Below, in pieces: positions 13,875 through 46,339 of a stretch of DNA of 64,000 nt. Source of the stretch: a virus; IMG/VR virus record IMGVR_UViG_3300029286_000009, positions 124,001 to 188,000 of that record; one strand, given 5' to 3'. The translations under genes and the position numbers were made by a program. The stretch's first letter is position 1. Every line of letters begins with the position of its first letter. The notes below the pieces were generated by a model. The model did no database searches, had not been told where the DNA came from, and worked only from the letters and a program-made list of their open reading frames with translations.

Positions 13875-16055
13875 TTAATTTGCCTTCTCCTTGGTGCCGC
13901 TGAGGTATCTGTCAATTTCCTCCACCAACACACGATTGATAAGTTTACGGTTAGGCGATTTGGGCAATGAAGATTTATCCATTACTTCATTCAGTGCTTT
14001 GTCTTCCTTTTCCGCCCACTCGATTAGTTCCTCATACTTCCAAGCACCATTACGAATAGCGAGTAATTCTTCTGCGTCAGGGCGTCGTACGATTACGCCT
14101 TTACCTTCTAGTATTTCTCGTGCCATACGCATGAGACGAACAAGGTGAAGGGCGTGTTTAGAGTTCCCATGAATCGCAATTTTACCTTTTCTTCTGGTGA
14201 TAAGAACTTCGTTTGGAACCGTAAAACACACAACATGTCCATTTTTAACCCTGACAGGATGAATGTGTTGAGACTTACTCAAGTATGCACAGGTTCTAGT
14301 TTTTCCGATATATACCTGATACATTGCACAGTTGCCAAATTCTCTTGGTTTACGATCATAATAGTAAGGGCCCCATACTTGTGATACAATTCCGGCTTGT
14401 AAACACATTATCTGGACATCATCAGCTAGCCTCTTCAGGCTTGTATAGTATATACTACTAAATTTTCGGTATGTGCCGTCTCCGCCAATTAATCCTTCTA
14501 GCATCAATCTAGCTTGTCTTTCGTTAAGTTTGTCTTTAAAATGTGGGAGATGTTTGTTTTTTGCTTTGCCACACAAACCATATATCTCATCAGCAAGTTG
14601 GGCAGAGAATGAGTAAACACATTCTTTTGTAATTCTGCCTGACTTTAGTGTACGCTCATAATAGTATCGCTTCGCACCGTAACATTCTCTCAGATTTTCT
14701 AACCAAGGAATAAGGGGACTAGCAGGGTGTTGCGATATATTTAAAGACTTTGCTTTGTTTTTATAGAAAATTATAGACCCTTCGGCAATATATACACCAA
14801 TCAGCCTAAGTTTTTCGTTAGGTATCGGGTAATCTTCTCTGGGATTACAAGTTAATCTTGCATGAAAAGATCCGTAACGAGATTTTTCTATCTTGTCTAC
14901 CGATATTAGTGCCCAATCTGCCTGCTCTGGGTTGTATTTGATAGTAAAGTTATTGGATTTTTGTCGGTGGGTTCTGGTTACAAGTAATCTATGGTTGCTT
15001 GTCACAACACAGTTAGATTGTTGCATCCTTATCTCATATAGGAACCCAGAAGCTCTGTATGAATCTCGACCCAAGAAATGTTGATACTCTAAATTTCCTT
15101 CAGTGTTGATCGTTCCTAATTTATCGTTCTCAGATATTTCTCTGTATAACTTCCAACCTGTATCAGTCAAAAACTCGGTATCACTTAGATAACAGTCAAA
15201 TCCGTGCTTTTGTTCAAGTTCTGATCTTTTCGGATTACGTTCCTGCTTCCACTTTTCGTAATGATTCCAATCTTCCAGGTGGTTCTTGTAAGCAGAATAT
15301 CTTTGAAGATAGTTTACGAAGTCAGAATCGAATCCCAGCGTTCTGTTCGCCGCCCGTTCTAACACATCCTTGAGATGGTCTACATTAGCCTCTATGTAGA
15401 GTTGTTCAGTCACTACATTAACCATACGAACCATTTCTGGTCCTAGCTGTATCTTGGTGTCTTCCGTCAAGTGGGTCTGATCAACTAACCATTCACCTAC
15501 TTGAAGTTCTATCATTTTCAGAGCACCGTGTAGTTGGTCCTTCGGGAATTTCATTCCTTCTATCCCGTAGTCTGCACGCGTAGGATAGGTGGGCGGGTTG
15601 CTAGTCCAGCGATGATGGTTGCGCATCCTTTTGAGCTGTTGCATAGCGTACCCACTAAAGCGGTGTTTAAGTAGCTTACTGAGGAATGCATCCTTGATTT
15701 TGGAGAACCTTTCCATAAGTGGGTGTGCATAGATGATTGAATCTTCAGGAACGAACAACAGTTCCAGCATATTCGGGTTTCCATCTGCTGCTAATCCGAT
15801 CATTTTTTTAAGTGACCAGATTACAATATCACTATCGGGAACCAAGTCTCTCCTTGTTCCTTTAGCAACCAGAGGAATTACTTCTTTGCTATCAGTTTGC
15901 TCGAAGTTACCAAACCCGTAGAAATATTCTTTAGGAGGAATAGTCGCCCCCCGGTAATCCATATCTGATTCGGGTGTATTTGTCCCGTAAAGTTGAGATC
16001 CTGCGGGGGTAAGATAGACAATGTTTGAACCTATCCAGTTTTTTATGTTTATCAA
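13875..16055 (-). CDS. Predicted nucleotidyltransferase with inserted intein
   Basis: The extein is a polymerase-beta-type nucleotidyltransferase: near the N-terminus GSQLYGTNTPESDMDYRGA supplies the GS motif and the two metal-binding aspartates. The conserved GFD-SKHALHLVRL segment is split by a 344-residue intein. I prefer TTG 16055 (SD GGGAAGGAAG, TTGA overlap with the upstream stop); ATG 16082 would add 9 residues. After splicing the protein is about 382 residues. Phage members of this family are common but their substrate is unsettled; RNA end modification would fit the ligases on the plus strand. Confidence 0.85.
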   Translation of the reverse strand: MINIKNWIGSNIVYLTPAGSQLYGTNTPESDMDYRGATIPPKEYFYGFGNFEQTDSKEVIPLVAKGTRRDLVPDSDIVIWSLKKMIGLAADGNPNMLELLFVPEDSIIYAHPLMERFSKIKDAFLSKLLKHRFSGYAMQQLKRMRNHHRWTSNPPTYPTRADYGIEGMKFPKDQLHGALKMIELQVGEWLVDQTHLTEDTKIQLGPEMVRMVNVVTEQLYIEANVDHLKDVLERAANRTLGFDSDFVNYLQRYSAYKNHLEDWNHYEKWKQERNPKRSELEQKHGFDCYLSDTEFLTDTGWKLYREISENDKLGTINTEGNLEYQHFLGRDSYRASGFLYEIRMQQSNCVVTSNHRLLVTRTHRQKSNNFTIKYNPEQADWALISVDKIEKSRYGSFHARLTCNPREDYPIPNEKLRLIGVYIAEGSIIFYKNKAKSLNISQHPASPLIPWLENLRECYGAKRYYYERTLKSGRITKECVYSFSAQLADEIYGLCGKAKNKHLPHFKDKLNERQARLMLEGLIGGDGTYRKFSSIYYTSLKRLADDVQIMCLQAGIVSQVWGPYYYDRKPREFGNCAMYQVYIGKTRTCAYLSKSQHIHPVRVKNGHVVCFTVPNEVLITRRKGKIAIHGNSKHALHLVRLMRMAREILEGKGVIVRRPDAEELLAIRNGAWKYEELIEWAEKEDKALNEVMDKSSLPKSPNRKLINRVLVEEIDRYLSGTKEKAN
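14163..15194 (-). other. LAGLIDADG-containing intein
   Basis: The insert begins at Cys (CYLSDTEFLTDTGW, block A) and has a block-B-like VVTSNHRLLV. A dodecapeptide homing endonuclease is marked by LIGVYIAEGS and LEGLIGGDGTY. It ends ITRRKGKIAIHGN before Ser+1. The terminal pair is Gly-Asn rather than His-Asn, with His at the third-last position, an unusual but known variant. Cys1, the TxxH-type histidine (TSNH), Asn and Ser+1 are all present, so splicing should work. Confidence 0.85.
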
Positions 16056-16624
16056 GCTTCCTTCCCTTCTATAATTCTCCATTTACTTTTGAACGCCCAG
16101 TCTAGACTTAGTGGTGAGGTTCTCAGTCCTGTTAAACAGAATTCATAGCCGTTTTCGGCCTCAATAGCGTTAACTTCACCAGACTCCATACCTTTCAAGG
16201 CTTCTAGAAAAGAAAGGGGGTAATCTTTTACGACTTGCCACTTCATCTGTGTGAGTAAGCCATTCACCGAGCATCCGGAATCTAGCCATTTGTCCATAAA
16301 CACCTGCAATTTACCTTTACAGTATCTGTAGTTCCAGCAATTTCCTACGGGGCGCATGATGATAGTCTCATCCTCCGACATTTTATTCAGGGCGTCCAAA
16401 AAACTCACCCCACTGTCTGCGAGCTGAGAACAATTACCCGTAACTTCCCACTCTTCTTCTGGGAAGGAATTAACTGTAAGCATAGAGATTACCCACCTGC
16501 CACAATTACAGAGTTCCAGCTTTCCCTGGTTGAATCGATAGTTATTGTTGTTAGCATGCCCTACGGGCCTCATAACGAGACCTTCACACTCTGCCATCTT
16601 CTTCAAAGCGTCTATGAAGTTCAT
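16052..16624 (-). CDS. Three-repeat protein of Tad2/DUF2829-like layout
   Basis: ATG 16624 follows AGGAGCAAAGGCAAA. Three repeats of about 60 residues each open with FxxALxxM (FIDALKKM, FLDALNKM, FLEALKGM), continue with RPVG and YR strands, and close with a W-x-V type strand (EEWEV, MKWQVV, SKWRII). The layout resembles DUF2829/Tad2 domains, and tandem copies would suit multivalent ligand binding. Two single-domain relatives lie at 6.1-6.7 kb. The defence-inhibitor role is inference. Confidence 0.6.
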   Translation of the reverse strand: MNFIDALKKMAECEGLVMRPVGHANNNNYRFNQGKLELCNCGRWVISMLTVNSFPEEEWEVTGNCSQLADSGVSFLDALNKMSEDETIIMRPVGNCWNYRYCKGKLQVFMDKWLDSGCSVNGLLTQMKWQVVKDYPLSFLEALKGMESGEVNAIEAENGYEFCLTGLRTSPLSLDWAFKSKWRIIEGKEA

Positions 16625-24929: not shown

Positions 24930-25940
24930 TTATTTACGAAACCGAGCGATGAGTTCCTTTGATGTTACCAGATTCATGCCTCCCTGTCTGAACCGGTCAA
25001 ATGCTTCTTCCATTGGTCCCGTGAAGTCAGCAACACCCGGAATCACAACAGCACTAGTACAATCTGTCACAATAGAGACCTTTTTAGCCAGGAACGGGTC
25101 TTTGGCAGCTATAATATCCAATAGGTCTTGTACAGTCCATGCTAAGCAATGAGATCCTGCCTGCCCTAAAATCCAGACTTCATCGTGGCTGAGTAGATTC
25201 TCTATGAACTTCACATTGAGCTCTCCAACAACAACCCCATCATGGGACTGGGTAACCTCAGGGCGTAACACCGAGTAGTTTTCGGTTAGCACCTTGCCAC
25301 CCTTTATTTGAAAACCGGTCTGTGATCCGCGAGCGACAGCGTGGAAGAATACTGCTTCGTAGAGCGAGGGGTTCATTGCGTGACCGGTTTCCCCGAGCAT
25401 TGTATGGTAGGGCCAGATCATCAGGGCGTACTTGCCAGTCGCACTAAGGCACTCTGTGTAGTACTGGCAATACTTCTGTAACCACATCAGCGGGGCGTTA
25501 ACCTCCTTACAGAGTGCTGGATTGAGTTTCCACAGACCAGTTTTCACATCTTTCTCGGAGAGAATGGTTCCAGGGGACGGGTGTTCACCATGGTCGTTTA
25601 CCCACGCTATCGAGAAGAATATCTGGTAGAGCATATGCGTATCCAAAGTAGGGCAAATTCGAGTGATCACGTCCATTAGCTCGTAAATCAGAACGCAGGT
25701 ACGGTTAGTATCGTCAATAGCTCCATGACCACTCCTACCCGTCACTGGCAGATTACCGTCGCTGTTTACGAAATCAATTTGTCCATCAATAATAAGCAAG
25801 CAGATTTTCAATGTGTCACTGGCTGCCGGTTTGAAGTTGTGGGTTCTCGCCCAGTCTATAGCGTCTTTCTGAAGACTGATCATATCGACTTTGCGCCGTG
25901 TATCGGTAAGTGTCGAATTATAAACTGCTGGAATTGGCAT
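24930..25940 (-). CDS. Nicotinamidase/isochorismatase-like hydrolase
   Basis: The cysteine-hydrolase pattern is clear: ICLLIIDGQIDFV (catalytic D52 of the PncA type), an acidic loop, WPYHTMLGETGH, and LGQAGSHCLAWT, whose Cys is the nucleophile. At 336 residues it is longer than bacterial PncA (about 210), with extra sequence at both ends. Nicotinamidase converts nicotinamide to nicotinate for NAD salvage. It follows the kinase gene by 11 bases, so the NAD-related enzyme and TerY-P triad share an operon. A role in NAD restoration against NAD-depleting host defence is possible. Confidence 0.75.
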   Translation of the reverse strand: MPIPAVYNSTLTDTRRKVDMISLQKDAIDWARTHNFKPAASDTLKICLLIIDGQIDFVNSDGNLPVTGRSGHGAIDDTNRTCVLIYELMDVITRICPTLDTHMLYQIFFSIAWVNDHGEHPSPGTILSEKDVKTGLWKLNPALCKEVNAPLMWLQKYCQYYTECLSATGKYALMIWPYHTMLGETGHAMNPSLYEAVFFHAVARGSQTGFQIKGGKVLTENYSVLRPEVTQSHDGVVVGELNVKFIENLLSHDEVWILGQAGSHCLAWTVQDLLDIIAAKDPFLAKKVSIVTDCTSAVVIPGVADFTGPMEEAFDRFRQGGMNLVTSKELIARFRK

Positions 25941-25951
25941 GATTTCTCTCC

Positions 25952-27814
25952 TCAGGAAATTTTGACTAGACTGATATAGTGTGCCGACACAGCATATATG
26001 CCGCCGCTTCCTGCTTGTATCCTGTGTCCGCTGTTGATAAATGGTTCTGTGTCTGGGAAGGTCTTGTCCACGAAGATGGTATGAGATTTATCATATGTTA
26101 TGCGTGCTAGACCTCCGTCGGTTGCTGCAAATAGGTAGTTCCCAGCTGGTGTCTTTCCTCTGATTGTTCCTGCCCAACTACCATCTTGCCATGTGGTAGT
26201 GGTGTGTGCGAGGGGACTACCAAGAGAGTCTATGACCGTCCATGCAGTACGGGTGATGCCTTGATCTTGGTAGGCAACACCGAACCAGGCAATATTGCCA
26301 CTAAACAAGCATGTCGAGTCTACAAGCTGCCCTCGTATTGTAAGAGGAAGTTTGACGAAGTTATTAATGCCAGGCAGTTTTGCATTAAAGACGAATGCAA
26401 AATCAACTTCTCCTGCTCGGTAGAAACCAAACCCGAACTTTTCTCCTACCCAAAACAAGGATTGCCCGCTAAGTATATCTCCAATATATGTTGGAGCATA
26501 CACGTCTTCTCTCATTAACCTCCCATTCTCCACCCAGTATAGGTGGTGAGAGTTGACATCAAAAATAGGTAGATTTCCAAATTGATCGATGTTCCGTATT
26601 TCTTTTCCATTGAGCAATCGAGAACCCTTACCAACAAAAGTACTGGAAGGTGTGATTCTAAAACGCAGAAATGGGTCTAAATCGCCTTCTATAAAAGTTT
26701 GCCCTGTTTCCCGTTTGAATTTTCCACCTTCATGATACAACCAGAGCAAGTTACCCATGTAAGCGGTGTGAAGAATAGTTCCTTTCGTTTCGAAAATACG
26801 CTCGCACGTGACTTGTCCTCTTACCTGTATGGTTACGTGCTTCTGGGGTAGTTGGGTCTGACATATGGGGCATGTATGGCGACAGTGGGTTGCCCCGCAT
26901 AATTTGCACGTTTGCCATACTACTCTCTCGATAAGCTTTAAAGGAAATTTTCCGCGTAAGTCTTTCGTAAAGACTTGCTGAAAATGATGTAGTAAGTCAT
27001 CGGTTAAAGCTTCAAAATGTATTGCTGCTTTAGGGTATCTTACGTCAGGATGAAACACTGAGATTCTCTTGAGGGGGCGTTCTTCGTCTTGTAATAGATT
27101 CTTTCCAGTGGCTTTATAGACGCCTTCGTACGGAGCTACATACAACCAAGATTGGAATAAGAGAACATTGAAAGCGTACCAGTCAGAATCTAGTGTATGC
27201 GGATTTACCATTACAAGACGTTCTAGGGCAGGATCGCATAATAGTGGGTCTACAAATTTGGCTGTAAAAGTTTTGCAAAGGTAGGGACCAAACTGTGTGG
27301 AGTCTGCATCAATAACAAAAACATCCATATACTTAATTAGAATGTTAAGGTCATTTAGAGCGTCTCCTAACACCACACCTAAGTTGTGTGCTTCTGTGAT
27401 CCCATAGTGGAGATTCTGTGCGATGTGAGTAATCTGGTCATTCGATATCCCGCCACCCTCCCTGAACTTCCTTTCGCTATATTTCAGGATTACTTCAGCA
27501 TCTGCAACTAACGGCATCGAATACCCGATGATATTTCCGCCCTTCTCCCTAATCAAATCATTACCTTTTACTACACAGGACGGAAATGTTTGTTGTAGGA
27601 AAGCGGGGAGTTTTTGTTGGTGTTCTTTGATCCTCTCGTCAGCCATCTTCTGGGCATGCGGTTGTCCACGGTAATCAGAGTGGTTAGGGGGTTTAAATAT
27701 TTTGGCGATCAGACCGGGAGTTAACCTGTAGATGTCTGCTTCGCCCCCCTTGCCCCCAGACAATGCGTCTTTGGGAGTAAGAATCGTTTTCTTCCCACAA
27801 ATGTAAATATCCAT
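25952..27814 (-). CDS. TerY-P-type protein kinase with zinc ribbon
   Basis: The N-terminal kinase fold shows GGKGGEADIYRL (Gly loop, residues 20-31), LIAKIF (Lys38), GVVLGDALNDLNILI (catalytic loop, about 146-160) and VFVIDADS (metal site, about 169). Near residues 305-325 CKLCGATHCRHTCPICQ forms a zinc ribbon. The C-terminal 280 residues are repetitive W- and G-rich strands, probably a beta-propeller sensor. It is 620 residues long. With the phosphatase and vWA genes it forms the TerY-P arrangement described in bacterial tellurite/stress loci. Confidence 0.8.
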   Translation of the reverse strand: MDIYICGKKTILTPKDALSGGKGGEADIYRLTPGLIAKIFKPPNHSDYRGQPHAQKMADERIKEHQQKLPAFLQQTFPSCVVKGNDLIREKGGNIIGYSMPLVADAEVILKYSERKFREGGGISNDQITHIAQNLHYGITEAHNLGVVLGDALNDLNILIKYMDVFVIDADSTQFGPYLCKTFTAKFVDPLLCDPALERLVMVNPHTLDSDWYAFNVLLFQSWLYVAPYEGVYKATGKNLLQDEERPLKRISVFHPDVRYPKAAIHFEALTDDLLHHFQQVFTKDLRGKFPLKLIERVVWQTCKLCGATHCRHTCPICQTQLPQKHVTIQVRGQVTCERIFETKGTILHTAYMGNLLWLYHEGGKFKRETGQTFIEGDLDPFLRFRITPSSTFVGKGSRLLNGKEIRNIDQFGNLPIFDVNSHHLYWVENGRLMREDVYAPTYIGDILSGQSLFWVGEKFGFGFYRAGEVDFAFVFNAKLPGINNFVKLPLTIRGQLVDSTCLFSGNIAWFGVAYQDQGITRTAWTVIDSLGSPLAHTTTTWQDGSWAGTIRGKTPAGNYLFAATDGGLARITYDKSHTIFVDKTFPDTEPFINSGHRIQAGSGGIYAVSAHYISLVKIS

Positions 27815-27823
27815 AACACTACC

Positions 27824-28660
27824 TCATACAAGGGGGCCCGAGAATCGCTTACACACCACTACTGTAGTGTCGTCTGATAGCATCCCAAGTGCACGCAAGG
27901 ATGGACGAGTGATAGGGTTGGCCTTGGCTAGGAAACGTTGTAATTGGGCTGGATGATCATACCACGTTGCATCCTCCCAGATGTTCTGTATATTAGGAAT
28001 TATGACATCATTTCTACCAGGCAAAGTATGTCCTTCTTTCGCAAGGAAATCATCTATACCGTCTGTGGCTATTGCGATCGAAGTAACATCTCGGGGAAGC
28101 TTAACGATAGAGAATTGTCTGCAGGTCCCAGCATCCGGGTGATTCGCATCCAATTGATGGGCTAAATACGGCGGGGCATTTCCAGGAAATGGTCCTAACG
28201 CGGTGTGTTCTCCTTCAATCCAAATATGCCCGTCGCCAAAGTGAAATGCAAAACTCAGGTTGGGTGATAGATAGAACCCAATCACTGTAAAAAGATAACT
28301 TTCATAGATTAGATTCTTCACTACGTTCTCGTCGTCAGTAATGTCCACAGTACCCGCACGAATTAGCTCCAATAGTCTCTGGCGGCAACACTCCATTACC
28401 CAGGTAGGAATATCCTCCTCTGTAACCCACCAGGAGACGCGGCGTGCGTGTATTACAAGTGCAGGCACCAGATGCACTAATACTTGCGTGCATATTCGAG
28501 AACCAACTTCACTGAAACGCCCCGATCCGCAACCATCCGATACTACTGCGACTATATAGCCAGGGGTAGAAATGTGATCATACGCGTCTTGGTTGTTATA
28601 ACCCGCCGAATCATGGAAGGTACCTATTACACTCGCACCTGCAATCTTGTAGTTGTGCAT
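27824..28660 (-). CDS. PP2C-like Ser/Thr phosphatase
   Basis: ATG 28660 follows GCGGAGAATATA. PP2C motifs appear in order: NNQDAY, VVSDGCGSG, AFHFGDGHIWI, IATDGIDDF and SDDTTVVV; the aspartates bind the two metal ions. About 278 residues fits the TerY-P phosphatase group. It should reverse the action of the adjacent kinase on shared targets, perhaps the vWA protein. Confidence 0.85.
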   Translation of the reverse strand: MHNYKIAGASVIGTFHDSAGYNNQDAYDHISTPGYIVAVVSDGCGSGRFSEVGSRICTQVLVHLVPALVIHARRVSWWVTEEDIPTWVMECCRQRLLELIRAGTVDITDDENVVKNLIYESYLFTVIGFYLSPNLSFAFHFGDGHIWIEGEHTALGPFPGNAPPYLAHQLDANHPDAGTCRQFSIVKLPRDVTSIAIATDGIDDFLAKEGHTLPGRNDVIIPNIQNIWEDATWYDHPAQLQRFLAKANPITRPSLRALGMLSDDTTVVVCKRFSGPLV

Positions 28661-28771
28661 TATATTCTCCGCATCGGGTAGCAAAGAATGCCGCTTACTG
28701 TTGATTCAGTTATCAGAGATGGCATGTTGTATCCTTTCGAGAGGGGGCGGTTACCCACCCCCACTGTTGTA

Positions 28772-29593
28772 TCAAGTAGTAAAGCCACCTAGCACGGTTT
28801 GGCTGCCAAAACCTGCTTGGGAAACCGGTCCCAGGTTGGCTGCTTGAGAGACCGCGATGGCACTTTGAGAAAAGACAGCAAACGCTTTTCGGATGTCAGA
28901 CGCTGAATTTCCTGGGGTGAGGATCCACTGTGCAGGAATCCCCATACCGGTAAATACGCGGGTAAAGTTGGTATGACGGTCTTCTATACCCATCCCAACT
29001 ATAATATTACGCTCCATACGCAAGAGGTCCTCTGCAATAGTCTTAACATCTTGGGCGGACACCCCGCGTGAGGCGTTGTCTGCCCCATCAGTTGCGAACA
29101 GTGTAACTGTTCGGCAGGACTGTGCTTCTTCAGCAAGTTCTTGTGCTTTAAGGAAAACTGTTCCAAGTACCACCTTAGCTTGTGCATAAAGAGGAGTACT
29201 CCCGTAGCTTGGATCGTAAACACCAAGACCGAAAGGTGGCACGTTGTCCAGCTCGCAATAGGGGGTGTAAACTTGTCCAGATAGTGCACGAGCGTGGAAA
29301 AGAATGGCGTCCTTTTGTTTAGATTCTTTTAATGCTCGGATACACCCGTTCACACCCTTTACCATGGCATCAGGACCATCTTTGATGCAACTGATGGATC
29401 CGGAGTCATCAATTAGTAGAGTAACCAATATCACTGTGGAGGGTAGTTGCATCTGCCCCACATTGTTCCCCATGCCACCCTGGATTTGGGCACCAATATC
29501 CTGCAAGTTTAGAAGGTTGGCAGAAGTAGGGGACAACACCCCGTCGTCTTGTGCAGACTGGAGTAAGTTCTGAAGACTTGCGTTCTGGCTCAT
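28772..29593 (-). CDS. von Willebrand A domain protein (TerY-like)
   Basis: The vWA fold carries a complete MIDAS: LIDDSGS (D62, S64, S66), a threonine in GSTPLY and ATDGAD. A helical N-terminal 50 residues precede it. GAAAGGAAAATAGG precedes the ATG. In TerY-P systems this protein is the metal-dependent adaptor paired with kinase and phosphatase. Confidence 0.85.
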   Translation of the reverse strand: MSQNASLQNLLQSAQDDGVLSPTSANLLNLQDIGAQIQGGMGNNVGQMQLPSTVILVTLLIDDSGSISCIKDGPDAMVKGVNGCIRALKESKQKDAILFHARALSGQVYTPYCELDNVPPFGLGVYDPSYGSTPLYAQAKVVLGTVFLKAQELAEEAQSCRTVTLFATDGADNASRGVSAQDVKTIAEDLLRMERNIIVGMGIEDRHTNFTRVFTGMGIPAQWILTPGNSASDIRKAFAVFSQSAIAVSQAANLGPVSQAGFGSQTVLGGFTT

Positions 29594-29681
29594 CCTATTT
29601 TCCTTTCATATTTGTTAGGTTAGATGCATTACTAGGGGGATAGCTCTGATTACTCCTAGGATTTGCTTGTGGGGGGACAAT

Positions 29682-30143
29682 TTAGTTATATTCTTCAGTT
29701 TCTATAAAATCAGGATATATCTCTTCTATGGGGAGCCGGTTAAAACGTAAAAAATCGTCTCGATACAAGTAATATCCCATCCCTTCATGCCACCACTGCC
29801 CATTTGCGCACCAGTGTTCGTCTATACTCAGCCCATGATCGGGCTGCCACACTGGAATAGGAGAAAGATGGCATCCTTTCGGCCCCAAACTACAACAATT
29901 TCTGCATACCAGTTCTTCTACATTTACATGCCACATATCTTGTACGCCTTTCTGTTTTTGATATCTTGCGCGGGTAAACAAAAACCGGAAATTCTCTATG
30001 GGGGTTGTTGGGACGATTTCTACGCGTCCGTATTGACGCTCCACCGCCCCAACAGTTCTATGAATAATACTAGCTTTTGTAAAGGGGAGAACGCCTTCCC
30101 TTGCGTTCCCCCCGGTCCATATACTTTCAATATAGTAAAACAC
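29682..30143 (-). CDS. Hypothetical Cys-rich protein, 153 aa
   Basis: It probably starts at GTG 30143 with only a weak ribosome site. The middle has CRNCCSLGPKGCHL, and later HWCANGQWWHEG, suggesting a zinc site. It sits between the structured region and the vWA gene, so it may belong to the TerY-P operon. Confidence 0.55.
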   Translation of the reverse strand: MFYYIESIWTGGNAREGVLPFTKASIIHRTVGAVERQYGRVEIVPTTPIENFRFLFTRARYQKQKGVQDMWHVNVEELVCRNCCSLGPKGCHLSPIPVWQPDHGLSIDEHWCANGQWWHEGMGYYLYRDDFLRFNRLPIEEIYPDFIETEEYN

Positions 30144-30195
30144 TACATCGTTAGTTGCCTAGCGTATTCCGTTCGCTTATTCATGCTTTAGGCGC

Positions 30196-30605
30196 TTGAA
30201 AATTCCGTGTCGCACTACTGCTATGCTACCACGCCATATTTTTTGGGGGCGTGGGGTGGATCTGCACCACCGTCTACACGTAAGTTGCCATAGCACTGCT
30301 AATGGGAAATTGCTTAACGGCGTTTAGCCTTGGGTCAATCACCTCACGGGATTTAGCCTGATACACCCCTATGCCGTAGTGGGTGCTCTTGTGAACGTGC
30401 TCCTAAGCTTACGACCCAACTGTATGGAACCTTCTTGCTTGCTAGATAGTATATTCGTCTAATTATTTAACGTCCAATCGCCCCAACTAACTATTTGTAC
30501 ACTACCTAGCAAGCAAGAAAGTCCTGGTATTTTTGGCGGTGTGCCATCTACCTACACATGTGTAGCATGTAGGGTGGCTAAAGACAGCACACCACAGACA
30601 TAACA
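30196..30605 (-). ncRNA. Long structured non-coding region
   Basis: About 410 bases hold no credible gene but many inverted repeats. A perfect 14-bp repeat (TTCTTGCTTGCTAG at 30432-30445 with its complement at 30506-30519) encloses a 60-base loop. There is also a hairpin centred on TACACATGTGTA at about 30555, and CCACGCC paired with GGCGTGG at about 30230. Two GGCTAAA blocks recur on the minus strand. It may be a regulatory RNA upstream of the TerY-P cluster or a protein-binding region; the direction is inferred from neighbours. Confidence 0.45.
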
Positions 30606-31376
30606 TTAACTGGTGGTTCGTATCGCGTCCAGAAAGCAGGAATAAACTTCTTCTCCTATCGCTGCGACGGGCACCGCCACCTGATTGGCACGTGCTCTTG
30701 CCTGCTTTACCTCACGTATCATCTGGTCAAGGACACTGAGTCCAACCATCTTCTGCCGTGGGGTGGGGCAACCGGTGTAACGTGTATTCTCATAGTGACC
30801 AACGACCTTTTGTTCGTCAACCACAATGACCTGTTCCTTATGTTCTTTTGTCGCGGGGGCGATGGACACGGGAACCTTCGTCATCTCGGTCTTATTCGCC
30901 TTTACAGGCTCAACAGTTCGACGTACACCTTCCAGCTCAGCAGATGTGTCGTTCTCCCAGTGTACGGTTGTATCCAGCGTAGGAATCCTGTCCGCAAGAT
31001 TCCGAATCCGGATAAGTTCTTTTTCAAGCCACATCAACATCGTGACCGGAACTGCTGTGATCACTTTGCCATTGGGCAGCGTAAGATCTGCAACCGCCTG
31101 CATATTGGCGAGCTCACGCTGGTACTCGGCGTCCATGCGATCAACAATTGCCTTGCCTATATACTTAAATCTTTCCGGCACGGTTGTCGTCAGACTGACC
31201 CTTTCTCCAGCACCGGCTTCCTCCGCCACACGATCATCGTCGTGCATCTTCAAAATTTTAACGTGTCCATTGAGCAGTTCTTTCTTGTCCAAGAGTCGAC
31301 TGGTCTCGTCCAGCATCTTAGCCTGAACCGCCTCCAGCTCCGGAATTTTTGCCAAAAGTTCGTGCAACATTCCCAT
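30606..31376 (-). CDS. DUF7873-like protein
   Basis: AAGGAGACTAAAACA precedes the ATG. Helical N-terminus; then LTLPNGKVITAVPVTML, LEKELIRIRNLADRIPTLD and, near the end, KVPVSIAPATKEHKEQ and VGHYENTRYTGCPTP. I recall this order from an uncharacterised bacterial family (DUF7873-like). It is 256 residues long. It precedes the TerY-P genes on the same strand and might be part of that system. Confidence 0.6.
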   Translation of the reverse strand: MGMLHELLAKIPELEAVQAKMLDETSRLLDKKELLNGHVKILKMHDDDRVAEEAGAGERVSLTTTVPERFKYIGKAIVDRMDAEYQRELANMQAVADLTLPNGKVITAVPVTMLMWLEKELIRIRNLADRIPTLDTTVHWENDTSAELEGVRRTVEPVKANKTEMTKVPVSIAPATKEHKEQVIVVDEQKVVGHYENTRYTGCPTPRQKMVGLSVLDQMIREVKQARARANQVAVPVAAIGEEVYSCFLDAIRTTS

Positions 31377-37509: not shown

Positions 37510-38147
37510 CGTTTTGGTTCTCCTTTGAATTTGGGTTGCAGTCTTTGTACGGTAAATTCTATCCGATCAGCCCCCGGTCCGTACATCCGGTTGCACCGCT
37601 TGATTATTTTGTTACGTTCTTCAGCAAACTGGGTGTATTTATCCAAGTAGTCAGTCACACCAGGATTGCGATAAATCAGCCATGAATAATATTTAGATCT
37701 TAGCCAGGCTAACCTTTGTGCATCTGAAAAACTGCCCTTGAACTGTGTAAGATAATAATCGTAAAGACAAGCTATGGTGGTCGCAGAAAGTAAATTTGCG
37801 TTCGCACCACGAATTACAAATAGAGAAGTTCCTTCGGAATCATGACATTTAGTAAGAACAACACTTAGCCTAAGTTTTTGCAACACACGCTGAAGGATGT
37901 CTTCGTTCCATCCCCCTGTGCTAATCCCAGGTACAGAATGACTGGGAGAACGTTCAACTCCGTCTTCATGGACTTGTCTTATAAGAGCATATTGAGCCAG
38001 CTCTTCAGCTATAGGCCCGCAAAAGCCACACTCTTCAATCTTGCTAACTAGTCCAGGGTAGAACTCTGTTATGTGTTCTTCAAAAGATTTGCCGCTACAA
38101 AAGTTGGGCAATAACAAAACTAATGTAATACTTAGGACTTTTTGCAC
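37482..38147 (-). CDS. Exported protein, 221 aa
   Basis: GTG 38147 behind AAGGAGGATTT opens a signal peptide of about 19 residues (ending NFCSG). The mature part has two cysteines in ECGFCGP and a helical core, with a basic C-terminus. It is probably periplasmic. No family is recognised with confidence. Confidence 0.6.
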   Translation of the reverse strand: MQKVLSITLVLLLPNFCSGKSFEEHITEFYPGLVSKIEECGFCGPIAEELAQYALIRQVHEDGVERSPSHSVPGISTGGWNEDILQRVLQKLRLSVVLTKCHDSEGTSLFVIRGANANLLSATTIACLYDYYLTQFKGSFSDAQRLAWLRSKYYSWLIYRNPGVTDYLDKYTQFAEERNKIIKRCNRMYGPGADRIEFTVQRLQPKFKGEPKRWYQNSETK

Positions 38148-38165
38148 AAATCCTCCTTGTGTTAG

Positions 38166-38456
38166 TTAAAATTCAGTTGCAGATTCCCACCGATAAACAT
38201 TTTCTTGCTCCATTCTTTCTATGTCCCACGTTCCTTCTGGGGTTTGGTAGACAAAGCCAACAAAGTATACATCATTACCTTTTCCGCAATCTGGAGAATA
38301 GAAGTCATCAATGTAAGCCCAACACGGAAACTGCTCGGGGTCCCCGCTAACTTCAGTAAACTCGTTCTTCTCTTCAATTTGCTTCCTGAGTCTAACCCAC
38401 TCAGCTTCATTTGTAACTAATGGCGTTTTGTTTTCCTTTTTATTTATTTTTTTTAT
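38166..38456 (-). CDS. 96-residue protein with apparent AUA start
   Basis: The frame encodes a convincing protein (EAEWVRLRKQIEEKNEF, CWAYIDDFYSPDCGKGND, VYFVGFVYQTPEGTWDIE) but has no ATG, GTG or TTG before it. AGGAGGGTAAGA lies directly before an ATA codon that opens KKINKKENK. A stop lies seven codons further upstream, so the start is confined. It is the first gene of the minus block. Alternatives are ACG further in, or a mutated start. Confidence 0.6.
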   Translation of the reverse strand: MKKINKKENKTPLVTNEAEWVRLRKQIEEKNEFTEVSGDPEQFPCWAYIDDFYSPDCGKGNDVYFVGFVYQTPEGTWDIERMEQENVYRWESATEF

Positions 38457-38577
38457 TCTTACCCTCCTCTTTTACTATATATATATTTGAGGGTATAGCG
38501 GTATTAGTACTCTAATACTGCCTATACTAGTATAGGAGGGTTGAGAAAGAAAATGATATAAAAGAAAGAGGTGCGGA
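38457..38577. promoter_or_regulatory. Divergent control region
   Basis: This gap separates the two divergent gene blocks. It holds TACCCTC/GAGGGTA (38460-38495 region), GTATTAG/CTAATAC around a 4-base loop, and a perfect 14-bp palindrome CTATACTAGTATAG. An outer pair, ACCCTCCT at 38461-38468 and AGGAGGGT near 38536, doubles as the ribosome site on each side. A TATATATATA run lies between. Opposed promoters and operators are very likely here; exact hexamers are uncertain. Confidence 0.65.
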
Positions 38578-38748
38578 ATGTCTCATGATAGAGACAATAA
38601 ATGTCAGAGAGAAGACTGTAAGTGGTGGAATCCTGATTTTCCGATCAGTTGTCTTCAGTGGGATATTCAACGTTCTGCTGTGATTCTCGGTATCGAGAAG
38701 TGTGCTCGACATACAGTGGAGGAGAAGCGAAATGCCGCACAGCATTGA
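38578..38748 (+). CDS. Cys/Trp mini-protein, 56 aa
   Basis: AAAGAGGTGCGGA precedes MSHDRDNKCQ. NKCQREDCKWWN is shared with the next gene (DKCYREDCWWWD), showing tandem paralogues. Four cysteines and a histidine suggest a zinc or disulphide site. It is the first gene of the plus block. Confidence 0.65.
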   Translation: MSHDRDNKCQREDCKWWNPDFPISCLQWDIQRSAVILGIEKCARHTVEEKRNAAQH

Positions 38749-39773: not shown

Positions 39774-40523
39774 ATGAATGCCAAGCCGCTCGACCACCCG
39801 ATCTACGGGTCTATCCCACACCTGCCTCAATCACGTTTGGGGCCGTCTGATAAGCAAGCCTCGATTGGACATGTCCGCATCGCAACTGAAAAGCCACGCG
39901 ACAAATGCGATCTAATCATTGTGAGCGAGAAAATAGACGGGAGCAATGTTGGTGTAGCTAAGTTACCAGATAGCTCTCTCGTTCCCCTAATACGGTCAGG
40001 GTACGTAGCCGATACTTCGCCCTATCTCCAGCACCGCTATTGGGCTAGCTGGGTGTATGAGCACAGCCACAGGTTTAACTCACTTTTATCTAACGGGGAA
40101 TGGTGTGTAGGAGAGTGGTGCATTCAAGCACATGGAACTAAGTATACTTTTCTGGATGAACCTTTTTTCCTATTTGATATTTTCTCTACTGATAAACGTA
40201 TCACTAAATTACAGCTTGACTTAAGAAACAACTCTCTTTTAAAGCCATTTTGTTGCCCGCGGGTGTTCTTCTGTGCCAACTCAGCTCTTCCTGTTTGCGA
40301 AGCATCGGCAGTTCTCGGGGATCACGGTTTTCACGGAGCTCTCGACAAGGCAGAAGGTGCGGTTTGGCGGGTGGAACGTAATGGAATGGTAGACTTTCTA
40401 TGTAAATACGTTCGCCCACAGAAATATGACGGTATCTACCTCCCTGAGATAGCAGGTACTCATTATATTGTGTGGAACGAATGGGGTAGCGATTGTCAAT
40501 CACTTAAACATTTATTAAGATAG
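39774..40523 (+). CDS. RNA ligase (Rnl2-like nucleotidyltransferase)
   Basis: Motif I is SEKIDGSNVGV with K53 as the adenylated lysine. GEWCVGEWCIQAHG and FFLFDIF correspond to motifs III/IIIa, EGAVWRVERNG to motif IV and FLCKYVRP to motif V. It is 249 residues long. ATP-dependent ligases of this type seal RNA nicks. It opens a plus-strand group with a CCA-adding enzyme and a second ligase, consistent with tRNA repair after host anticodon-nuclease attack. Confidence 0.8.
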   Translation: MNAKPLDHPIYGSIPHLPQSRLGPSDKQASIGHVRIATEKPRDKCDLIIVSEKIDGSNVGVAKLPDSSLVPLIRSGYVADTSPYLQHRYWASWVYEHSHRFNSLLSNGEWCVGEWCIQAHGTKYTFLDEPFFLFDIFSTDKRITKLQLDLRNNSLLKPFCCPRVFFCANSALPVCEASAVLGDHGFHGALDKAEGAVWRVERNGMVDFLCKYVRPQKYDGIYLPEIAGTHYIVWNEWGSDCQSLKHLLR

Positions 40524-40539
40524 AAAAGGGAAGGAAAAG

Positions 40540-41319
40540 ATGGGACGTCGGCGTGTTATAACACCGGAACAGAAAGAAATGATTTTGGAACTCACAGCAG
40601 ACCTCAAGCTCCCCGAACAGTTACCTGTGGAGAGTGCGTTGTGTCTCATGTTCGTGATGGCAAATAAGTTTAATGGACAGCTCAACAAATCCGATTATTA
40701 TGTATTGGGTCGCACAGTGATGGGTGCAACCAATGCATATTATGATGTTTATCGGATCACAGCATTTGGACTTGGCTACGGCGATAGTGTCAAGGATGTA
40801 AATACGATATTTATACCCGGTAACTACCGACATTGGGGAGACCTTAAGAAGTCTTTCAGCGTATGGAGACGGGACTACTTCAATCGCATACCACAAAAAC
40901 TCCGAAAACAGGGGCGTAAGCAAAAAGATGAGACCTATGAATTACCGGTATGCCGGTTCAATGATGATGCAGTCGAACAGCTCTTTCAATCGAATGTTGC
41001 ACTCAAAGCAGATGTTAGTGCTCTTTTTGACTGCATCTCTGACCGCTTCTTGTCGTTGCGCCCCAAAGACTTCAATGAGGATGGGGAAGAAAATATTTTT
41101 GCAGGCTACAAGAAATTGAAACAAGAAGTGTTTGAGTTGCGAAAGATTGTTCGCATTTTGGGATACGAGCCTGATTTTGTGCGTAAGCAGTTGGCAACTG
41201 CTCAGCATATGGCAACTCAATCAGCTTTGTTTGCATCTTCTGCTATGGAGATACTCTTCAAACTGGCGGGAGGGAAGGACGAAGAATCAGGTCCTGCATC
41301 TGCTGTTGCCCGCCACTAA
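40540..41319 (+). CDS. Hypothetical protein, 259 aa
   Basis: GGGAAGGAAAAG precedes the ATG. The product begins MGRRRVITPEQK and has helical segments, a basic linker (KLRKQGRKQKDE) and a long C-terminal coiled region. It is followed by a strong terminator. No family is recognised. Confidence 0.65.
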   Translation: MGRRRVITPEQKEMILELTADLKLPEQLPVESALCLMFVMANKFNGQLNKSDYYVLGRTVMGATNAYYDVYRITAFGLGYGDSVKDVNTIFIPGNYRHWGDLKKSFSVWRRDYFNRIPQKLRKQGRKQKDETYELPVCRFNDDAVEQLFQSNVALKADVSALFDCISDRFLSLRPKDFNEDGEENIFAGYKKLKQEVFELRKIVRILGYEPDFVRKQLATAQHMATQSALFASSAMEILFKLAGGKDEESGPASAVARH

Positions 41320-41326
41320 CCGCATA

Positions 41327-41352
41327 GGGGTTCCCCTAAGGGAACCCTTTCC
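41327..41352 (+). terminator. Rho-independent terminator
   Basis: GGGTTCCC (41328-41335), loop CTAA, GGGAACCC (41340-41347), then TTT. The perfect 8-bp stem lies eight bases after the previous stop. Confidence 0.75.
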
Positions 41353-41365
41353 TAAAGGAGGAACA

Positions 41366-41806
41366 ATGACAGGGTATGAGGCTATTCGTTATGCTTGCGG
41401 GGGTAGTAAAATTCGTAACTCATCTTGGACATGGGCTCCGTGTTCATTTATAACTCTCCGTATCAGCCCACCCCCACAAGGCAATGAGTTTATGATCCAC
41501 ACCGATGCTGGTGCTTTCCCGCGTCCGTATACGTGGGACAACTCAGCGTTACTGGACACAAATTGGGAAGTCATAAGCGAAAAATCCATCTCTTCTTGCA
41601 CACCCGTAACCCAAGAGAAAAGAGATATTCGTGTTTGGCACACAAGCCTGGCAGGAACACCTATGACTTATGCGACAGCTATAGAATGTGCTAAAGAGCG
41701 GGCCCGCAGTAATCCTAATGTGAAGTATATTCTCGTCAGAGAGATACAGTCTGTTTGCTATGAAGTCCCAGATGTTGAACCGAAACTAGTGATCAAAGAG
41801 TTGTAA
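41366..41806 (+). CDS. Tad2/DUF2829-like protein, 146 aa
   Basis: ATG 41366 follows AAAGGAGGAACA. MTGYEAIRYACGGSKIRNSSW, strands, and DTNWEVISEK fit the FxEAxxxxxxGxxxR...W-x-V layout. The C-terminal 60 residues are an extra strand/helix region. It stands next to the CCA-adding enzyme. The assignment is by layout only. Confidence 0.5.
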   Translation: MTGYEAIRYACGGSKIRNSSWTWAPCSFITLRISPPPQGNEFMIHTDAGAFPRPYTWDNSALLDTNWEVISEKSISSCTPVTQEKRDIRVWHTSLAGTPMTYATAIECAKERARSNPNVKYILVREIQSVCYEVPDVEPKLVIKEL

Positions 41807-41829
41807 ATTATTCAGAAAGGAAGGTCGGT

Positions 41830-43320
41830 ATGCGAGCCAAGTTGCCATATTGGGATAAAACTATGGAGTTAGCTCTTAATGTGGCTTTTGCAATAAGAGA
41901 TACAGGTCATTCCGTGTATGTTAACGGTGGACAGGCTCGTGAGTCTGTATTAGCGGTATTGGAAAATCGTGACCTTCACCCCGCTAAAGACATCGATATG
42001 TGCACATCAATGCCTGTTAGTGTAATGAAGCAATTGATAGTAGATGCACATATAGTGCCTACTGGTGAACAGTACGGGACGCTTACGTTTGTAAAGGATG
42101 GTGTTAGTGTAGAGGTTACCCAATACCGGAAAGATTTTGGTGATGTGAACGGCCCAACTGACAATCGTAAAGAGGTTTTCCCCACATTTTCATGTGACCC
42201 TGTTAGTGGTCCTCATTTTGACGTAGCCCGCCGTGACCTTACTATCAATGGGCTCTTGATAGACCCTTTTACAAGAGAAGTCATCGACTATGTAGGTGGA
42301 GTTGAAGACCTTTGTGCACACAAGATTAAGTTTATTGGAGGTGCTGTTGAGCGTTGCAGAGAAGATGCTCTTCGGTTGTTGCGGGCTATACGTTTCGCGG
42401 CACGCTATGATTACTCTCTGTCTCCTGAGGTGTTTGATGCAGCCGAAGACGAAATCGTGCAGAGACGCCTGAAGCTTCTGTCCGCTGAACGTGTAAGAGA
42501 TGAGTTCTTGGCCATTATGTCTGTTGAATCAGGGCACAATGTGGCGTGGGCACTCACAATGCTCGCTGAATTTGGTGTGCTGGGTTTCTGGTTCCCCGAA
42601 CTAGTTGCTATGATGGACGTGGAACAAAACATATATCACAGCCATGATGTTTGGGGACATACACTATTAGCTGTTGAACAGTCTGATCCTAATTTATATT
42701 GTCGTTTATTCGCTTTGTTCCATGACATAGGCAAACCCCCAACACAAGAGTTCGTTCATGAGGATTATGGCTACTCGTTTCATGGTCACCCCCATGTATC
42801 GTGTGATATGTTGGACACAATATTCGAACGATTGCGTTTCGGGCAAACCCGTACAGGCCAGTATGATTTTAATACAGACATACTTAAACATCTGGTGGGG
42901 CACCACATGGATGCATTCATTGATGGCAAGATGTCGCGTATGCTAAAACGTATTGGTATCGCACAGTATGGGAAGCATATGCTCGATTTGTCTTGGCGAG
43001 CAGGACGAGCAGATTTCTACGGAAGGAGCCCCAGGTGGCAAGTCAACCCGGATTTTCGGGGGGCAGACGAAAAGCTGCACCATACATACAATAAGGTTGC
43101 TGCTTACATCCATAGCATAGAGAACCCAGTGTTCTCAACTCGCGATTTGCAAATCGACGGGCGAGTAGTCATGCAAGAACTCCAAATTCCTCCGGGACCA
43201 GTTGTAGGTGAGGTGCTGAAACACCTTTTAGCTACAGTTCAAGATAACCTGGTTGCTAACACACAAGAGGAACTACTGTCTGAAGCTAAGCTGTATTGGC
43301 GAACCAGGGGTATAAACTAG
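41830..43320 (+). CDS. tRNA CCA-nucleotidyltransferase / poly(A) polymerase family with HD domain
   Basis: Class II features are in order: VNGGQARESVL (GG motif), DIDMCTSM (D54, D56 metal site), RRDLTINGLL, EDALRLLRAIRFAARY, then an HD domain with LFALFHDIGKP and a later HHMD. It is 496 residues long, the size of the HD-containing bacterial enzymes. It adds or repairs the 3' CCA of tRNA; the HD part may remove 2',3'-cyclic phosphates. It complements the two RNA ligases. Confidence 0.85.
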   Translation: MRAKLPYWDKTMELALNVAFAIRDTGHSVYVNGGQARESVLAVLENRDLHPAKDIDMCTSMPVSVMKQLIVDAHIVPTGEQYGTLTFVKDGVSVEVTQYRKDFGDVNGPTDNRKEVFPTFSCDPVSGPHFDVARRDLTINGLLIDPFTREVIDYVGGVEDLCAHKIKFIGGAVERCREDALRLLRAIRFAARYDYSLSPEVFDAAEDEIVQRRLKLLSAERVRDEFLAIMSVESGHNVAWALTMLAEFGVLGFWFPELVAMMDVEQNIYHSHDVWGHTLLAVEQSDPNLYCRLFALFHDIGKPPTQEFVHEDYGYSFHGHPHVSCDMLDTIFERLRFGQTRTGQYDFNTDILKHLVGHHMDAFIDGKMSRMLKRIGIAQYGKHMLDLSWRAGRADFYGRSPRWQVNPDFRGADEKLHHTYNKVAAYIHSIENPVFSTRDLQIDGRVVMQELQIPPGPVVGEVLKHLLATVQDNLVANTQEELLSEAKLYWRTRGIN

Positions 43321-43346
43321 GAACGTCACTAGATAGGAGGAATATA

Positions 43347-43508
43347 ATGGCTAAGTCTAAGAAAAAAATCAGGCACAGTCGTCCGCGGAACTTTGTAGTG
43401 GAGATTATGATACTCCATTGCAAGGCAGGTGGGCACATTAATCAGAAAAAGGAGAAAGATAGAAAAGCATGCCGGAACTTCTGTCTAAACGACGCTTTGA
43501 ATCTGTGA
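43347..43508 (+). CDS. Basic protein, 53 aa
   Basis: TAGGAGGAATATA precedes MAKSKKKIRHSRPRNF. A basic N-terminus is followed by a CKAGGHIN segment and a Cys pair. It overlaps the next gene by 40 bases. It is possibly nucleic-acid-binding. Confidence 0.6.
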   Translation: MAKSKKKIRHSRPRNFVVEIMILHCKAGGHINQKKEKDRKACRNFCLNDALNL

Positions 43509-43765
43509 TTGACCGAATACCTGTATTAGATAAAGCTCTGTATTCATTTGCAGAAGCTGTTTCGGATTATGAGCCCACGGCAGTAGATTTGGATGCATAC
43601 GATGAAGTCGACGCGTGTATCATCAGTTTACTAGACTCACTAAGTGAGGTGGAAGAAGCCCTAGAGAGACTTTCTGATAAGTTTCTTAACGGATTAACCC
43701 GCCTTGATGAAGAAGGTTTTGTTTTAGACCAGGAACTGGAGTCTGAAGAGTACGAGGTGGGCTGA
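43469..43765 (+). CDS. Acidic helical protein, 98 aa
   Basis: AAAAAGGAGAAAG lies upstream of the ATG. It is a strongly acidic product with long helices (SEVEEALERLSDKFLNG). The stop overlaps the next start (TGATG). Confidence 0.65.
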   Translation: MPELLSKRRFESVIDRIPVLDKALYSFAEAVSDYEPTAVDLDAYDEVDACIISLLDSLSEVEEALERLSDKFLNGLTRLDEEGFVLDQELESEEYEVG

Positions 43766-44085
43766 TGGTTTACAAAGGCACACGTAATATGGTATGCCCT
43801 GTTTGTAAAAAGACGATGACTTATGGGCACCCAGTGATGTATCGTGTGAACAACGTTGAGACACGGGGGCATTTGTGGTGTCCTACTTGCTTTACAAAAG
43901 TGTATTCGCAATATACAACCTCAAGAGAAGCAGACTTGGAAACATTTCAATCCTCAATTAAAGATGTGGTCGATAAAGCACACCGTGAAATAACAGATCG
44001 GGCATTCCCTGCTATAAATGGCTTTTGGTTTTGTTATTTTGAAAACCACAATCTGGGACTTGTTATCAACTATGCTATAGAATAG
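43765..44085 (+). CDS. Zinc-finger protein, 106 aa
   Basis: MVCPVCKKTM and, 26 residues on, LWCPTCFTK form a ribbon with two histidines nearby. A helical region and a strand-rich end follow. Function is unknown. Confidence 0.65.
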   Translation: MVYKGTRNMVCPVCKKTMTYGHPVMYRVNNVETRGHLWCPTCFTKVYSQYTTSREADLETFQSSIKDVVDKAHREITDRAFPAINGFWFCYFENHNLGLVINYAIE

Positions 44086-44094
44086 GGGGTTACC

Positions 44095-44280
44095 ATGGGC
44101 AAGGACTTAAGAAAGTGTCCTCATTGTAAGGGGAGTGGCTGGGACCCTAAAGGGGGAGAGTGTTATGTATGTGATGGTACCGGGGTCATTGCCTCGGGAG
44201 ATGACGCTCCTGCGACTATACAGGACGCTGATGATTTCTTCAGCGACTATTACCAGCGGAAAACCGCACAAGACTTCTAA
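44095..44280 (+). CDS. DnaJ-type zinc-finger mini-protein, 61 aa
   Basis: KCPHCKGSGW and ECYVCDGTG give two CxxCxGxG units, as in 9010-9285 and 18705-18917. An acidic helical tail follows. Confidence 0.7.
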   Translation: MGKDLRKCPHCKGSGWDPKGGECYVCDGTGVIASGDDAPATIQDADDFFSDYYQRKTAQDF

Positions 44281-44292
44281 AAAGGAACTGAC

Positions 44293-44739
44293 ATGAGTTC
44301 AAAAATGGTTGGAATCACAGTTATCAATAGATGCCAAAAGTTACTGTATAACATGATCGACAACAAGATCAAGATCGCTTGCCAAGGCATGAGTGCAGAA
44401 CAAATTAACAATTTTGCTTGGAAGCTGTTGGGACAAGAAGACCTTATGGCGGAAAAGCGAGAACTGAAGAAACGGTTGGAGGATATAAATACAGAACTCG
44501 ATAAGTTTGGGAGACAGCTCTACTTCCAGTATGACGGATTTTCTCACGGGGATAAAGACTGCAATAGTAACTCGAAACTGGCACGGGCACAGATAAAAGC
44601 CCAAGACATGCTCTACCCGCAAGTCAAAAAATTGCAGAAGTTGAAAGACTCCATTGAGGAGCGGACTTTATTGTGTATCGCACCAGAAGACTTACAAGCG
44701 TTACTTAAGGAAGTTAAAGCAGAGATAGAAAACTGCTGA
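44293..44739 (+). CDS. Coiled-coil protein, 148 aa
   Basis: AAAAGGAACTGAC precedes the ATG. Two heptad-rich helices (about 50-75 and 95-145) dominate, separated by a polar turn with HGDKDC. A hairpin (GGCAA with TTGCC) follows the stop at 44758-44790. Confidence 0.6.
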   Translation: MSSKMVGITVINRCQKLLYNMIDNKIKIACQGMSAEQINNFAWKLLGQEDLMAEKRELKKRLEDINTELDKFGRQLYFQYDGFSHGDKDCNSNSKLARAQIKAQDMLYPQVKKLQKLKDSIEERTLLCIAPEDLQALLKEVKAEIENC

Positions 44740-44805
44740 CCTCTGACCTAAATGGGGGTGGCAATCTTTTTTAAAGAGGTTGCCTCCCTATGAAAGGAAC
44801 AAAAA

Positions 44806-46038: not shown

Positions 46039-46050
46039 TGGGGTCCAACT

Positions 46051-46242: not shown

Positions 46243-46339
46243 AAGGAGACCAGTTCAACTAAATCTACAAGTATAAAATATAGACGGTGCCAGTGAACTA
46301 CACAGATTAAAATTAACGGGACCCCAAAGGAGTGCAAAG

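Follow-up and report, generated by a model that had tools for sequence, protein, structure and literature searches.

What does a kinase-phosphatase signalling module do in a large virus genome, directly beside a gene for an enzyme of NAD salvage? The question is raised by a stretch of 64,000 nucleotides (the window), which covers bases 124,001-188,000 of the 259,732-bp virus record IMGVR_UViG_3300029286_000009. Here, genes for a vWA protein, a PP2C-type phosphatase, a Ser/Thr kinase and a nicotinamidase-like cysteine hydrolase (which we call NIC) follow one another in that order, on the minus strand throughout, with intergenic gaps of 87, 9 and 11 bp. An earlier note on this DNA, made from its letters alone, took the first three genes for a TerY-P triad of the kind known from bacterial tellurite and stress loci, and regarded its union with a nicotinamidase as an oddity in a phage. 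TerY-P triads are usually discussed together with tellurite resistance and restriction; they are widespread, and we know of no physiological targets for them.

We report that the four genes form a conserved cassette of large phages, present in dozens of giant phages and in some cyanobacteria, and that the link of this cassette to NAD is well supported.

Identity of the triad proteins

Among the open reading frames of the window, Pfam recognises the phosphatase (PP2C_2, 2.2e-21) and gives no match for the kinase, the vWA protein or NIC, because these three are divergent. They were placed instead by profiles built here from alignments of huge-phage relatives. With the kinase profile, the PDB matches are Ser/Thr kinases; the vWA profile matches the vWA domains of integrins and of a thread-matrix protein. 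The same set of profiles recovers, in E. coli K-12, the proteins YegI (4e-22), PphC (3e-8) and YegL (9e-4), the reference trio of TerY-P type (yegI-pphC-yegL). To judge from these matches, the vWA protein, phosphatase and kinase of the window belong with YegL, PphC and YegI respectively; that is, they constitute a TerY-P triad, as had been proposed.

The active sites of the triad are intact across its relatives. The catalytic residues K38, D151 and D169 of the kinase are conserved in 78-79 of 79 relatives from phages and bacteria, and the metal-binding aspartates of the phosphatase in 76-77 of 77. In the vWA protein, residues D62, S66, T133 and D169 of the metal-ion-dependent adhesion site (MIDAS) occur in all 82 relatives, while the position of S64 is occupied by S or T.

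The kinase consists of a kinase domain (residues 1 to about 300), a zinc ribbon (CKLC...CPIC, 303-318) and an all-beta C-terminal domain (329-619). The earlier note had described it as a zinc-ribbon kinase. The ribbon is indeed present in the window's protein, but it is found in only 24 of the 79 relatives and is absent from the other 55; the conserved part is the C-terminal domain. For this C-terminus, structure prediction had been suggested as a check. When the AlphaFold2 model of the kinase (mean pLDDT 90, pTM 0.54) is searched with Foldseek, the matches are to kinases and to beta-propellers such as WIPI2/3, DDB1 and the N-terminal domain of clathrin, and the conserved C-terminus is accordingly modelled as a beta-propeller-like domain.

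The nicotinamidase-like protein

The NIC profile matches PDB nicotinamidases of yeast, Acinetobacter, Pyrococcus and M. tuberculosis, the best of them at 1e-11. Both the catalytic residues (D52, K213 and C265) and the metal ligands (D100, H102, H179 and E220) are invariant in all 161 family members, and in the profile alignment the former fall on D8, K122 and C167 of yeast Pnc1, the latter on its D51, H53, H94 and E129. A metal site composed of D, H, H and E marks nicotinamidases. The predicted structure (pLDDT 93.9) agrees with this assignment: its 14 best PDB matches in Foldseek are all nicotinamidases or pyrazinamidases (2wta, 1.8e-12). Profile, residues and fold therefore bear out the earlier identification of a nicotinamidase-type gene 11 bp after the kinase, and the claim that catalytic motifs are intact holds for all four proteins. 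From what is known of its family, NIC would convert nicotinamide into nicotinate. We name it nicotinamidase-like because it falls under the score of the curated family; it represents a divergent, long subfamily.

Recurrence of the cassette in large phages

In order to assess how often the four genes occur together, we scanned IMG/VR with the nicotinamidase motif alone, which yielded 80 confirmed loci, and scored all open reading frames in their 10-kb flanks. All four genes lie within 10 kb in 61 of these 80 viral loci, and at least one triad gene is present in 69. Several of the incomplete loci are short contigs, and L020 and L023 have the genes farther apart. Scanning with a kinase motif gave 54 loci, with a nicotinamidase in 52, a vWA gene in 52 and a PP2C gene in 51, although many contigs are shared between the two sets and the kinase seeds were drawn from such clusters. 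The records that bear the cassette reach 618 kb in length and include the Al-Shayeb huge-phage genomes LR745208, LR756511 and LR756500. Far from being an isolated oddity, then, the set recurs.

The order of the genes varies. Most of the main huge-phage group have nicotinamidase-vWA-PP2C-kinase, while cyanobacteria and window-like phages have PP2C-kinase-nicotinamidase-vWA. The order of the window itself, vWA-PP2C-kinase-nicotinamidase, is shared by L051 and L307.

Some loci carry additional genes of the same kinds. Second nicotinamidase copies lie near the cassette in L068 (15469-16389) and L105 (19711-20337), and the vWA gene is duplicated near it in L038, L052 and L071. Past the cassette of L006 (16560-20166) there is a larger, TROVE/Ro60-like vWA protein, followed by a JAB-type peptidase and a ThiF/E1-like protein, all identified by eye.

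Linkage to NAD+ salvage genes

In order to ask which genes accompany the cassette, we took 80 unique loci and clustered all genes that lie no more than 10 kb from the nicotinamidase, with no families selected beforehand. After the four cassette genes themselves, the commonest neighbours are NadE (25 of 80 loci) and PncB (21). Further recurrent neighbours are NadD (10), a metallophosphoesterase (10), an NrtR-like Nudix regulator (9), macro-like domains (7, for which Pfam gave no confirmation), Thg1-like enzymes (7) and RNA ligases (6). PncB, NadD and NadE carry the salvage onward from nicotinate to NAD (Preiss-Handler salvage), and NrtR is a repressor of the ADP-ribose-responsive type. Curated models place PncB with the nicotinate phosphoribosyltransferases, at 403-407 bits against a cut-off of 270 for TIGR01514; NadE exceeds its cut-off in two forms, NadD falls slightly under it, and NrtR has a curated match that includes the winged-helix domain. 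The linkage can be very tight. For example, the genes of L029 run PncB-NadE-NIC-vWA-(1)-PP2C-kinase-NrtR, and in L086 the nicotinamidase, kinase, PncB, NadE and NadD are grouped together.

The metallophosphoesterase was considered as a further member of the cassette and rejected, as it occurs near cassettes in one phage type only. We likewise rejected a tellurite or Ter context, nothing of the kind being found among the recurrent neighbours; TerB, TerC and TerD are not prominent among them, in a survey that searched for no Ter family by name. The tie to a tellurite or stress locus drawn by the earlier note thus gives way to one with NAD+ salvage, to which the neighbours (PncB, NadD, NadE, NrtR and enzymes of ADP-ribose) point.

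Over whole cassette records, matches above cut-off are found to NAPRTase in 30 of 51, to NAD synthase in 36 of 51, and to CTP_transf_like, a family broader than NadD, in 32 of 51. Moreover, NadE is not merely present but close: in 22 of the 36 records that have both genes it lies at most 10 kb from the nicotinamidase, compared with 3.0 expected under random placement and a maximum of 11 in 20,000 random placements. NAMPT_N, the mark of NadV and so of the competing route, was found in none of the 51 cassette records, while NadV is reported to be carried by 33% of jumbo phages (PMC9503650); since the two samples differ and many of our records are fragments, this absence is no more than suggestive of an exclusive route in cassette phages.

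As a separate check, we examined 80 phage loci selected by PncB. Of these, 59 contain NadE, 44 match the nicotinamidase family and 15 have the triad kinase. The long nicotinamidase accompanies the kinase in 14 of those 15 loci; in the remaining one, the L020 contig, it lies outside the stretch. Conversely, the kinase is missing from all 26 loci whose sole nicotinamidase match is weak (E from 1e-17 to 1e-7), a class that we took to be the canonical short PncA kind. Thus, we conclude that the triad goes with the long nicotinamidase rather than with NAD salvage in general.

Bacterial counterparts

Among GTDB genomes, members of the nicotinamidase family are frequent in cyanobacteria as well as in other phyla, mostly on their own; of 80 loci, 12 also have the kinase. 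The cyanobacterial layout begins with a divergent NrtR, followed by PP2C, an ADP-ribosylglycohydrolase, the kinase, the nicotinamidase and vWA; one such copy lies on a 6.1-Mb Nodosilinea scaffold (L111). A contig assigned to Parcubacteria (L107, 2675-14713) has a still longer row, consisting of PP2C, kinase, nicotinamidase, vWA, a NadD-NAD kinase fusion, Nudix, PncB, a nucleoside deoxyribosyltransferase-like protein, PRPP synthetase and NadE. The cellular copies bear the same NAD and ADP-ribose signature as the phage neighbourhoods. In the kinase tree, the window's protein groups with 12 mostly cyanobacterial rows in a clade of 17 that has 100/100 support, and the tree gives no direction of transfer.

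The L107 contig also has gatB and thymidylate kinase upstream; it may represent either an unusual, NAD-making bacterium of the Candidate Phyla Radiation (CPR) or a mis-binned contig.

Genomic setting and other features of the window

The setting of the cassette is that of a phage, as the earlier note had it, because a terminase is present on the record and phage-type RNA ligases, a tRNA nucleotidyltransferase and a RIIB-like gene are found in the window. A blastn comparison of the cassette region with phages returned zero matches. The features discussed are collected in Table 1. All four cassette genes lie where they had first been placed, except that we begin the phosphatase at a TTG codon (28684), the earlier start being an alternative, in-frame ATG.

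Table 1. Features of the window, in window coordinates.
Feature	Position	Strand	Remarks
vWA (TerY-like) protein	28772-29593	-	273 aa; first gene of the cassette; MIDAS DxSxS...T...D intact
PP2C-type Ser/Thr phosphatase	27824-28684	-	286 aa; TTG start, in-frame ATG at 28660 as alternative; Pfam PP2C_2
TerY-P/YegI-type Ser/Thr kinase	25952-27814	-	620 aa; own profiles, AlphaFold2 model
Nicotinamidase-like cysteine hydrolase (NIC)	24930-25940	-	336 aa; profile, conserved residues, model
DUF7873 protein	30606-31376		Pfam 7e-48
Second RNA-ligase-like protein	39774-40523		RNA-repair-like group
tRNA nucleotidyltransferase	41830-43320		RNA-repair-like group
RNA ligase	46721-47821		RNA-repair-like group of the same phage
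Polynucleotide-kinase-like protein	59290-60030		RNA-repair-like group

The DUF7873-like gene that had been listed with the cassette is present, but it is not a member: no homologue lies near any other cassette, and an unrelated open reading frame intervenes.

The window's phage also encodes an RNA-repair-like group (39774-47821 and 59290-60030), and RNA ligases and Thg1-like genes recur near other cassettes too. A 735-aa protein on the minus strand (13875-16082) has an N-terminal nucleotidyltransferase part (phrog_388, 1e-64) followed by weak matches to thymidylate synthase and PhoH-like proteins, and may represent a fusion or else an inserted element. On another record (G050; L188, 1156-2772), the terminase reading frame starts with what appears by eye to be an intein-type segment (TDDGW...CADEHIV).

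Proposed mechanism and alternatives

The set recurs in giant phages and cyanobacteria, often beside genes that rebuild NAD, and it is therefore probably a controlled NAD-recycling system. Specifically, we favour, with fair though not strong confidence, a module of phages and cyanobacteria that couples a TerY-P phosphorylation switch to NAD salvage by the nicotinate route, likely in order to hold NAD+ up. Enzymes that split NAD+, NADase defences among them, release nicotinamide as a by-product; the nicotinamidase would turn this into nicotinate, which PncB, NadD and NadE, encoded by the phage in many cases and otherwise supplied by the host, would rebuild into NAD+. The kinase would phosphorylate one or more targets, most likely salvage enzymes or host enzymes that consume NAD, and its predicted propeller may sense or dock something. 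From family knowledge, PP2C should reverse this Ser/Thr phosphorylation, with the vWA protein acting perhaps as a metal-dependent adaptor. In this way the NAD+ level would be kept up while a lengthy infection proceeds, and especially if the host defends itself by destroying NAD+. Genomic context is what suggests that the triad controls the salvage pathway, and also that the phage might thereby outlast NAD+-depleting defences, which is plausible.

A stronger version of this proposal is that the cassette is an undescribed NAD+-guarding system of giant phages and cyanobacteria, whose TerY-P switch senses the state of NAD+ or ADP-ribose and turns on nicotinate-route salvage under NAD+-destroying immunity. 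We put this forward tentatively, as something that is possible rather than expected. The anti-defence or host-reprogramming role suggested by the earlier note accordingly keeps its plausibility, as a purpose read from context; in sum, the observation made there is confirmed, and its interpretation is partly supported.

Several results weigh against the coupling of the triad to NAD salvage. No match to PncB, NadD, NadE or NrtR was found on the record to which the window belongs, although it may be incomplete; if the cassette works as proposed, its phage must rely on host enzymes, unless the genes lie beyond the record. Roughly one in three cassette records is without NadE or PncB in the sequence covered, and one clade (L031, L033, L036 and L042) has none of NadE, PncB and NadD on its records. 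In bacteria, most relatives of the nicotinamidase have no triad beside them. Finally, NIC scores far under the curated nicotinamidase cut-off (NF008623, 14.1 bits against 174), which is a recognition threshold and not a biochemical trait.

The IMG numbers of the contigs L031, L033, L036 and L042 suggest isolate-genome projects, and so a possible lead to cultured hosts.

The main rival to a defence-related role is metabolic supply: salvage would simply feed the NAD+ demand of replicating a large genome, and the triad would tune it to host physiology, with no defence being countered. Such a demand explains the same gene linkage, and the cyanobacterial chromosomal copies beside the NAD regulator NrtR resemble housekeeping NAD homeostasis. 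The genes for handling ADP-ribose that are frequent nearby (macro, ADP-ribosylglycohydrolase, NrtR) suggest that breakdown products of NAD+ serve as a signal, which fits supply and guarding alike. We consider supply alone rather unlikely, yet the most credible of the alternatives.

It is less probable still that the triad is a TerY-P module for defence or superinfection exclusion, directed against rival phages, with the nicotinamidase as a secondary accessory. There are precedents: according to PMC11090510 and PMC7699616, Gao et al. (2020) described protection from T7-like phages by TerY-P-like modules that have an OB-fold kinase and occur on their own, and other Ter genes, for which exclusion has been suggested, are carried by jumbo phages (PMC7824862). 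The kinase of the cassette type, however, hardly ever occurs without the nicotinamidase (present in 52 of 54 loci), and its neighbours are NAD enzymes rather than restriction or Ter genes. PADLOC models give the cassette weak, generic kinase matches only; because they miss E. coli YegIKL as well, we regard that library as silent, rather than negative, on TerY-P.

Nicotinamide is a product inhibitor of sirtuins and ADP-ribosyltransferases, and so the nicotinamidase might serve to clear it, allowing phage or host ADP-ribosylation to run on while NAD+ re-synthesis is incidental. The gene content of the window's phage fits this, for it has the nicotinamidase and, outside the cassette, an ADP-ribosylglycohydrolase (record positions 37944-38609, at about 37.9 kb; PF03747, 1.9e-30), and none of the downstream steps. 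Most relatives do have the downstream enzymes, often close by, which makes this explanation very improbable.

Least probable of all is that NIC is another cysteine hydrolase of the isochorismatase superfamily with a different amide substrate: besides its low curated score, Pfam Isochorismatase has no match to it and is borderline in one relative (26.6 against a cut-off of 27), and biuret hydrolase and maleamate amidase appear lower down among its Foldseek matches, but its invariant metal site, its best structural matches and the adjoining PncB, whose substrate is the product of a nicotinamidase, all argue for nicotinamidase.

Comparison with known systems

The TerY-P triad is said to have been defined by Anantharaman et al. 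in 2012. The cassette shares with it (E. coli yegI-pphC-yegL) a MIDAS-bearing vWA protein, a PP2C phosphatase and a zinc-ribbon Ser/Thr kinase, adjacent on one strand. It differs in the C-terminus of its kinase, predicted to be beta-propeller-like, in the absence of the zinc ribbon from most relatives, in its constant nicotinamidase partner, and in a neighbourhood of NAD enzymes rather than of Ter or restriction genes. The anti-phage variants with an OB-fold kinase (Gao et al. 2020, cited above) comprise, as far as those sources describe them, the same three protein classes, whereas the model of the cassette kinase suggests no C-terminal OB-fold, and the cassette is carried by phages and has a nicotinamidase as fourth gene.

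The cyanobacterial version resembles in part the ARG-centred Nudix-TF systems (those built around an ADP-ribosylglycohydrolase and a Nudix transcription factor) of PMC9503650, section 3.8, which combine an ADP-ribosylglycohydrolase with an NrtR-like Nudix repressor and sometimes with a phosphatase and a vWA protein. As presented there, however, those systems have phosphatases of rhodanese, calcineurin, HD or HAD type and occur in actinobacteria, planctomycetes and proteobacteria; unlike in the cassette, no kinase, PP2C or nicotinamidase is described in that section.

With regard to phage NAD+ metabolism, surveys of jumbo phages and viral NAD+ genes (PMC7824862, PMC9503650) list NadV, NadM and NadR, with no nicotinamidase, PncB or NadE found in them, and a huge-phage paper (PMC7162821) and a 2026 jumbo-phage review (PMC13282480) yielded no mention of nicotin- or kinase terms; this covers open-licence literature and is no proof of novelty. 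Like the KVP40-type NadV/NadM and the NARP1 Adps/Namat routes, the cassette belongs with phage-encoded restoration of NAD+ from nicotinamide, but it lies on the deamidating route (PncA, PncB, NadD, NadE) and is tied to a kinase-phosphatase triad. This suggests that many large phages may rebuild NAD+ through nicotinate, alongside the NadV and NARP routes already known. If the NAD+-guarding proposal is true, the cassette represents a regulated route of phage NAD+ restoration that is distinct from those based on NadV and Namat. For TerY-P triads themselves, its repeated NAD+ salvage neighbourhood offers a concrete and testable pathway.

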